Source: Bacilli bacterium (lineage in GTDB: Bacteria > Bacillota_I > Bacilli_A > RFN20 > CAG-826). From it: 38,718 nucleotides of DNA. The stretch spans positions 1 through 38,718 of the forward strand of contig JAFSPN010000017.1 of NCBI GenBank assembly GCA_017442875.1, given 5' to 3'. A program made the translations under genes and the position numbers. How positions within the stretch are numbered: the first letter of the stretch is position 1; each line of letters starts with the position of its first letter. Under the pieces are notes generated by a model. The model saw only the letters and a program-made list of their open reading frames with translations. It had not been told where the DNA came from and made no database searches. This document shows positions 23,576 to 25,209 of the stretch, piece by piece.

Positions 23576-23890
23576 CTAGTGATAATCCTCCTTATCAATG
23601 AAAGCATATATGTCCATTAACTCTTTCCATTCATTCTTAAAGTCTTCAAGTCTTTGTAGGCCAGTTGGTGTGATGTGATAGTATTTTCTGAGTCTTCCTT
23701 CAAACTCTGTTGATCGCACCACTAGCATCCTGGATTCTTCTAAACGTTTTAAGATCGTATAAAGAGTGGATTCGGATAATTCAAGGATTGGCTTTAAGTC
23801 TTTGATAATCTTGTAGCCATATGAATCTTCATCTTTAATCGCTGCTAGAACACAGACATCGAGCACACCTTTTTTTAGTTGAGCGTCCAT
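23576..23890 (-). CDS. PadR-family transcriptional regulator
   Basis: A 104-residue winged-helix repressor of the short PadR subfamily. The helix-turn-helix lies in VCVLAAIKDEDSYGYKIIKDLKPILELSESTLYTILKRLEESRMLV, where the Tyr-Gly-Tyr and the S-T-L-Y-x-I-L-K-R-L block are diagnostic. The wing carries EGRLRKYYHITPTGLQRLEDF. The SD GAGGT is 5 nt before the ATG and lies inside an inverted repeat that may be the repressor's own operator. It heads the operon with DUF1700 and DUF4097 genes. The signal it senses is unknown; autorepression is inferred from the operator position. Confidence 0.93.
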   Translation of the reverse strand: MDAQLKKGVLDVCVLAAIKDEDSYGYKIIKDLKPILELSESTLYTILKRLEESRMLVVRSTEFEGRLRKYYHITPTGLQRLEDFKNEWKELMDIYAFIDKEDYH

Positions 23891-23998: not shown

Positions 23999-24076
23999 TG
24001 GTGCGCTTGACGTGACTTAAACACGTGACCTCAACCTTCGGAGGGTTGCACTCTAATTCAACTGAGCTACAAGCGC
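23999..24076 (-). tRNA. tRNA-Arg (anticodon CCG) with A19/U56 replacing G19/C56
   Basis: A 78-nt cloverleaf with encoded CCA. The acceptor is GCGCTTG / CAAGCGC, the D arm is GCTC-AGTTGAATTA-GAGT, the anticodon stem-loop is CAACC-CTCCGAA-GGTTG, and the T arm is ACGTG-TTTAAGT-CACGT. Anticodon CCG reads CGG. The invariant G19 and C56 are A and T here, a paired change. All stems are intact, so this looks functional. Confidence 0.9.
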
Positions 24077-24105
24077 AGTAACTATTATACACGAATAAAA
24101 TAAAC

Positions 24106-24146
24106 AAAAAAGAACCCCTCTCTCTAGCAAAGAAGGGTTCCTTTGA
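24106..24146 (-). terminator. Terminator of the esterase lipoprotein gene
   Basis: Minus strand: the GAACCC / GGGTTC stem with a 16-17 nt partly pairing loop is followed by TTTTTTG, starting about 15 nt past the stop at 24157. Confidence 0.75.
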
Positions 24147-24156
24147 AAAAACGTAC

Positions 24157-25209
24157 TTAATAAAGAAGGTTATGGTCCAAAATCATTTGCCCATAGGCTT
24201 CGCCAAGTTTAAACTCATCTGGTGTATTGTAGTGATATGTATTATAACCGCCTTTTGAGTCATCACCAACTTCTAATCCTAAACCACCTTCTTCGTGGTT
24301 AGCGTTGATGCAGAAGTTCAAATCATCTTCCGATTCATCAGCAATCGACATTTTAGCGTTGTTCACGGCATCCCCATAATTTAAAGAACTTGTACCTTTG
24401 CCGTCATAGATTGTGCAGTCGATAAAAGCGATATTGTCAACATCACCATCAGGAGCGTAATCTTTGAATTCTTCTTTGAAATCCGCTAATAGCGATCTCA
24501 TATTGGTTTCATAGTCTGGATTTCCTCTACCCGTTTCGCCTTGATGCCATAAGAAGCCTTTAATGACTGGTGTTTTGCCAGTTGATTCTTCAATAGCATT
24601 TAAAGACTTATGTGTGTATTGTTTCAATAAATAAAACAAGGATAAAGTTGGATCATCTTCGCGGCTAAGCCAATCTGCGCCATGTTGAGAACCTGGATCA
24701 TAAACAAATCCCGAACCGGAGAAAGCACATTTGATTAGATGAACAGGATTGTCCTCGCTCACTTCGTCTTTAATCTTGTGGGCCAAACCTAATTCTGGTC
24801 CAAAGAATGGATTTGGATTATAACCTCCATCACCAACACCCATGCCAACCTTAGTCGGTTGGAAGTTAGGAGTTAACCTAGCTTCTGGTGTGCTTGTATC
24901 AGGAGAAGCAGTATGAGCATTTGTCCAGCCACTTGGATGATAGAAACCATAATATGTTGTTAAAACATTTGGGATACCATCTCTTACAGGGGCAAAGTCT
25001 AATTCTCTTTCTTCGAAATAGTTTTCTAATAATGGAATATTGCTTGTTGGATGAGTCCAATAGGTACTACCTTCCATATTTGATTGGCCAGAAAGAACGA
25101 ATACTGGAATTGTGTTATCTTCTTCCTCTTCAACTGGCCCACTATTACAAGCAGATAAACTAAGGCCAATTAAAGCGGCACTTAAAATACAATATTTCGC
25201 TAATTTCAT
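24157..25209 (-). CDS. Secreted lipoprotein carbohydrate esterase (SASA / CE6-like)
   Basis: A 350-residue lipoprotein. The signal peptide ends in the lipobox LSAC (Cys21), followed by an acidic linker. The SASA domain (sialate O-acetylesterase / acetylxylan esterase group, PF03629) starts with FVLSGQSNMEGS, with Ser43 as the likely nucleophile. It continues with NPFFGPELGLAHKI, VHLIKCAFSGSGF, and GFLWHQGETGRGNPDYETNM, the conserved WHQGE block. The C-terminal part has NTYHYNTPDEFKLGEAYGQ, which carries the probable catalytic His. It removes acetyl groups from glycans outside the cell; the exact sugar is unknown. It is divergently transcribed from the TetR-symporter-GH36 locus, 177 nt away, and AGAGGTAA precedes its ATG. 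A role in releasing substrate for that locus is inference. Confidence 0.9.
   Translation of the reverse strand: MKLAKYCILSAALIGLSLSACNSGPVEEEEDNTIPVFVLSGQSNMEGSTYWTHPTSNIPLLENYFEERELDFAPVRDGIPNVLTTYYGFYHPSGWTNAHTASPDTSTPEARLTPNFQPTKVGMGVGDGGYNPNPFFGPELGLAHKIKDEVSEDNPVHLIKCAFSGSGFVYDPGSQHGADWLSREDDPTLSLFYLLKQYTHKSLNAIEESTGKTPVIKGFLWHQGETGRGNPDYETNMRSLLADFKEEFKDYAPDGDVDNIAFIDCTIYDGKGTSSLNYGDAVNNAKMSIADESEDDLNFCINANHEEGGLGLEVGDDSKGGYNTYHYNTPDEFKLGEAYGQMILDHNLLY

Follow-up and report, generated by a model that had tools for sequence, protein, structure and literature searches.

A19 and U56 in place of the G19-C56 elbow pair in a conserved rare-codon tRNA-Arg(CCG) of Bacilli of the order RFN20

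The window analysed here, a stretch of 38,718 nucleotides, corresponds to contig 10 of a 1.32 Mb draft genome (68 contigs) from a Bacilli bacterium. It carries a tRNA-Arg(CCG) gene in which the tertiary pair G19-C56, described as invariant (PMC6337575), is replaced by A19 and U56. We hold with good confidence that this tRNA-Arg(CCG) is functional and that its 19-56 contact became an A-U Watson-Crick pair, probably through tolerated one-sided intermediates, in a genome from which the codon CGG is nearly absent.

The gene occupies positions 23999..24076 of the minus strand, is 78 nt long with an encoded CCA and is kept in relatives. ARAGORN calls a tRNA-Arg(ccg) at exactly these positions, and a sensitive search with the full Rfam tRNA model (RF00005) gives 60.7 bits, where the gathering score is 29; with the alignment to relatives, these results bear out the identification made in a preliminary description of the sequence. 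The default Rfam run did not list the gene at 23999-24076, presumably because of its fast filter, and it likewise missed the tRNA in loci L001, L006 and L015, the last of which has G19-C56. Read 5' to 3', the tRNA is GCGCTTG TA GCTC AGTTGAATTA GAGT G CAACC CTCCGAA GGTTG AGGTC ACGTG TTTAAGT CACGT CAAGCGC A CCA, with all stems fully paired, including one G10-U25. A19 is located at 24058 in the D loop AGTTGAATTA (24063-24054), between G18 at 24059 and A20 at 24057, and U56 at 24019 in the T loop TTTAAGT (24021-24015), whereas the anticodon CCG, which is expected to read CGG, lies at 24039..24041. In a column-by-column comparison the D loop lines up with AGTTGGATTA / AGCTGGATTA of the relatives L014, L020 and L022, in which the D loop is of equal length and the T loop starts with TTC. 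Since these equal-length loops have G in the same column, the changed base is position 19 and the numbering is secure, which rules out a mis-numbered D loop.

In other respects the tRNA has the features of a class I elongator, i.e., a cloverleaf with stems of 7/4/5/5 bp, anticodon and T loops of 7 nt and CCA, and the conserved U8, A14, G15-C48, G18, U54, U55, A58 and G53-C61. Only the G19-C56 tertiary pair of this class is absent, A19 and U56 being its complementary replacement, and this pair is not strictly defining for class I elongators, as other A19-U56 tRNAs occur in about 12 phyla. C35 is an identity element of tRNA-Arg, and the window tRNA carries it together with A20 and A73. A20 and A/G73 are likewise tRNA-Arg identity elements (PMC8629427). 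The tRNA-Arg(CCG) of several relatives (L013, L018, L019 and L021) ends in T73 (GCTCCA) instead of the usual A/G73, which might affect charging.

The marks of a tRNA pseudogene, namely disrupted stems, a lost promoter or a missing CCA, are not seen. A TATAAT on the minus strand (24084..24089) is a likely -10 promoter element, as judged by comparison of flanks, in which this hexamer or a near form is found at the same distance upstream of the tRNA-Arg(CCG) of relatives; a scan of the flanks called no full sigma-70 match at this site. On the same strand, a terminator-like hairpin of the upstream gene (24108..24144) ends before the tRNA promoter region, the upstream gene itself (24157-25209) being esterase-like. 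Hairpins followed by T runs, terminator-like when read by eye, stand 3' of the tRNA in many relatives. The next gene downstream, also on the minus strand (23576..23890), encodes a PadR-type regulator (Pfam PF03551) unrelated to the tRNA. The conservation of stems, -10 box and hairpins in relatives points to a working gene, and normal function of its product in translation is probable.

Among the 37 tRNAs recovered from the genome, tRNA-Arg(CCG) is the only one with A19 and U56. G18G19 and C56 are both kept in 35, the exceptions being this tRNA and tRNA-Phe(GAA). In a sample of about a quarter of the genome (36.9% GC), CGG accounts for 12 of 85,928 codons (0.14 per 1000) and appears in 11 of 211 long ORFs. 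This agrees with the earlier characterization of the gene as a rare-codon tRNA, but the swap is not special to such tRNAs, as it also occurs in the tRNA-Arg(ACG) and tRNA-Gly(UCC) of Bacteroidota and, in all, in about 12 phyla. Because CGG is almost absent, one-sided intermediates could be tolerated, the constraint on this tRNA being plausibly relaxed. In the GTDB order RFN20, the arginine codons AGG and CGG have been reported as reassigned in some clades, including CGG to Trp in a clade of uncultivated Bacilli, and the reported Firmicute CGG reassignments occur where CGG is below 6 per 10,000 codons (PMC8629427). Reassignment of CGG is not indicated in the present genome, where the tRNA carries A20, C35 and A73.

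The same A19-U56 combination is found in 11 of 16 congeneric genomes, while the remaining five (G002, G003, G010, G011 and G013) have G19-C56 and none of the 16 shows a one-sided state. This recurrence excludes chance or a read error, as the preliminary description had anticipated. The tRNA-Arg(CCG) of the G19-C56 congeners has the same acceptor stem and anticodon arm as that of the window and a closely similar sequence, and differs in its canonical 19-56 pair and in part of the D-loop bases. When 24 tRNA-Arg(CCG) genes, A19-U56 members among them, are aligned, 99.4% of the stem cells are paired and both sides have changed in 13 of 23 stem pairs. At 19-56, the 22 distinct rows of this alignment comprise 13 G-C, 7 A-U and 2 other, unpaired combinations. 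Compensatory stem change is also found within the A19-U56 group, where the window has U52-A62 and relatives have C52-G62. With positions 19 and 56 complementary in all 11 congeners and the stems, CCA and -10 box kept, the change appears, on sequence grounds, compensated, conserved and compatible with function, in line with the original proposal.

Across the order, 128 of 279 genomes matched a pattern for tRNA-Arg(CCG) in which positions 19 and 56 were left free. Of the 129 genes recovered in this way, 103 have G-C, 19 A-U, 4 A.C and 3 G.U; two more A.C genes with a variant anticodon loop (CCGGA) raise A.C to 6. The 151 genomes that gave no match include the whole genera g7, g46 and g51, which have perhaps truly lost the CGG-reading tRNA or carry diverged genes; genes that have diverged, or that belong to the missing parts of incomplete genomes, also escape the pattern. 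The raw association between 19 and 56 is strong (Fisher p about 5e-16, uncorrected and inflated by relatedness), but a tree-corrected independent-pair test is weak (5 pairs agree, 1 opposes, 3 show no difference; p about 0.22). When mapped on a tree of RecA from 73 genomes, the four states require 11 changes, A19 requires 9 and U56 7, and A-U turns up in no fewer than four separate places (g1, G019/G201, g9 and the family f5). The swap has thus arisen at least four times in the order. A coordinated change, as first proposed, holds within the genus, where no one-sided state occurs, but not in the order, in which A19.C56 is found in four genera and G19.U56 in two, ruling out strict coordination of the two positions. 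Independent single changes in relatives, which had been named as evidence against the proposal, are therefore present in lineages of the order and absent inside the genus. Strict coupling is not needed, given the several relatives that live with an unpaired A.C; the pair tends toward restoration, yet one-sided states are tolerated. The swap was probably stepwise, via mispaired intermediates. Mixed genera, g9 with G-C, G.U and A-U and g56 with A.C and G.U, look like steps along one path, in a presumed direction. Elsewhere in the order, G19.U56 was observed in tRNA-Arg(CCT) at L225-L227 (genomes G211, G213 and G214), and A19-U56 in the tRNA-Arg(CCT) of G026 (L208) and the tRNA-Thr(CGT) of G045 (L202).

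In the history that we favour, a first, one-sided change (A.C or G.U, forms still present in relatives) would have been tolerated because the tRNA had hardly any codons to serve, and a later step would have restored pairing as A-U. An A19-U56 pair would be geometrically equivalent to G19-C56 with one hydrogen bond less, and could leave intact both the stack A58-G18-R57-(19-56) and the elbow's flat outer face, as expected from established tRNA structure (elbow anatomy in PMC4810234). The same rarity of CGG could instead mean that the gene is decaying, with the tRNA heading for loss and the elbow changes as the first damage, a view with which the existence of one-sided A.C and G.U states and the many pattern-less genomes of the order, diverged genes and incomplete genomes among them, are consistent. 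We consider this quite unlikely, as stems, CCA and -10 box are conserved, compensatory stem changes occur inside the A19-U56 group and the changed pair is complementary in every one of the congeners that carry it.

The A19-U56 combination is not unique to the window. A scan of GTDB r220 contigs gave at least 125 matches in at least 120 stretches, with at least 121 intact A19-U56 tRNA genes, and the intact genes among the matches listed belong to about 12 phyla (NCBI names). The leading isoacceptor families among these matches are Arg (at least 70) and Gly (at least 33); Bacteroidota contribute at least 57 tRNA-Arg(ACG) and at least 30 tRNA-Gly(TCC), the rest being scattered. Because the pattern was limited to tRNAs with a D stem of the form GCTC/GAGY and a variable loop of five bases, these counts are minimum values, and some of the bias among isoacceptors stems from the pattern itself. 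The Bacteroidota tRNAs resemble that of the window in their full cloverleaf and in keeping G18, U54, U55, R57 and A58, and differ in isoacceptor and phylum and, for Arg(ACG), in not being rare-codon tRNAs. As tRNA-Arg(ACG) is the expected reader of several CGN codons and has the same swap, rare-codon relaxation is not the general cause, and the swap in Bacteroidota must have a different or broader one. A19-U56 is therefore a recurring, tolerated natural variant that is not limited to rare-codon tRNAs. No description of natural bacterial A19-U56 tRNAs was found in the open-access literature; an earlier one is possible in subscription papers, which were mostly outside this search.

Laboratory mutants of other tRNAs with this double change have been engineered and work in vitro. 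In pre-tRNA-Gly processed by the protein-only RNase P AtPRORP3, G19A/C56U gives a kreact of 1.78 per min (1.67 for the wild type) and a KM of 7.7 nM (4.8 nM for the wild type), and C56U alone a kreact of 1.81 and a KM of 6.4, while C56U alone in chloroplast pre-tRNA-Phe lowers cleavage to 22% (PMC5039416). Serylation of human mitochondrial tRNA-Ser(UGA) is lost when 19-56 is broken and regained with A19:U56 (PMC10412605). These mutants, made in other tRNAs and assayed with other enzymes, agree in part with the suggested equivalence of the A-U pair. tRNA-Pyl likewise departs from G19-C56 (PMC6337575), but it lacks both inter-loop pairs and has a remodelled core, whereas in the window tRNA the pair is replaced and not lost.

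The other exception in this genome, its only tRNA-Phe(GAA) found, lies outside the window (L064:428-503, minus strand, contig 4 of G000; also seen at L229-L240 and L320-L323). It keeps G19 and C56 and has the D loop AGCUAGUA and the T loop CGCGCUC. In the genome and its congeners (D loop AGYUAGUA), where no other tRNA-Phe was recovered, A18 stands for G18, C54 for U54, G55 for U55 and C58 for A58; A18/G55 is kept in the genus, mostly with C54/C58, and one congener has the T loop UGCGAUC. Three abnormal tRNA-Phe types occur in the order, A18 with CGCGCNC and, in other genera, A18 with UGCAANU and G18 with AUCRUYC; examples of all three were re-read by ARAGORN, and the last amounts to a swap of 54-58 to A-U. 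A search of 395 genomes of the class for A18/G55 yielded 2, both from the family of this genome. This elbow is stranger than A19-U56 and the more surprising lead. It is a tentative and rather doubtful proposal that this family is rewiring its entire tRNA elbow, at 19-56 in tRNA-Arg(CCG) and tRNA-Arg(CCU) and, in its one tRNA-Phe, at 18-55 and 54-58.

G19-C56 forms the face at which tRNA is gripped by many enzymes as well as by the ribosome, RNase P and T-boxes (PMC4810234). A19-U56 could have been selected because it alters recognition by an elbow reader, be it a modification enzyme, RNase P, a T-box, the ribosome or a tRNA-cleaving toxin. The independent origins in the order, the phylum-level spread in Bacteroidota, the many cases in tRNA-Arg and tRNA-Gly and the second elbow rewiring in the tRNA-Phe of the same family are in keeping with this idea, which we nevertheless judge very unlikely, given that no co-varying partner was found, that the U55-modifying enzyme TruB is present as usual and that several 19/56 states stand side by side within one genus (g9, g56). 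Loss of the U55 modification enzyme as the cause is ruled out by the presence of TruB. A sequencing, assembly or annotation artefact, conceivable in a draft assembly of 68 contigs, is refuted by the recurrence of the pair, amid differing flanks, in the assemblies of 11 congeners.

The series of G-C, A.C, G.U and A-U states among relatives constitutes a natural comparative experiment on a near-universal tertiary contact, and bears on the extent to which the elbow drifts once a codon is almost unused. As the default and sensitive Rfam searches illustrate, fast tRNA profile filters may miss such genes. Were the elbow indeed rewired family-wide, this could reflect altered elbow-reading machinery or an elbow-reading selective agent and not mere rare-codon drift.
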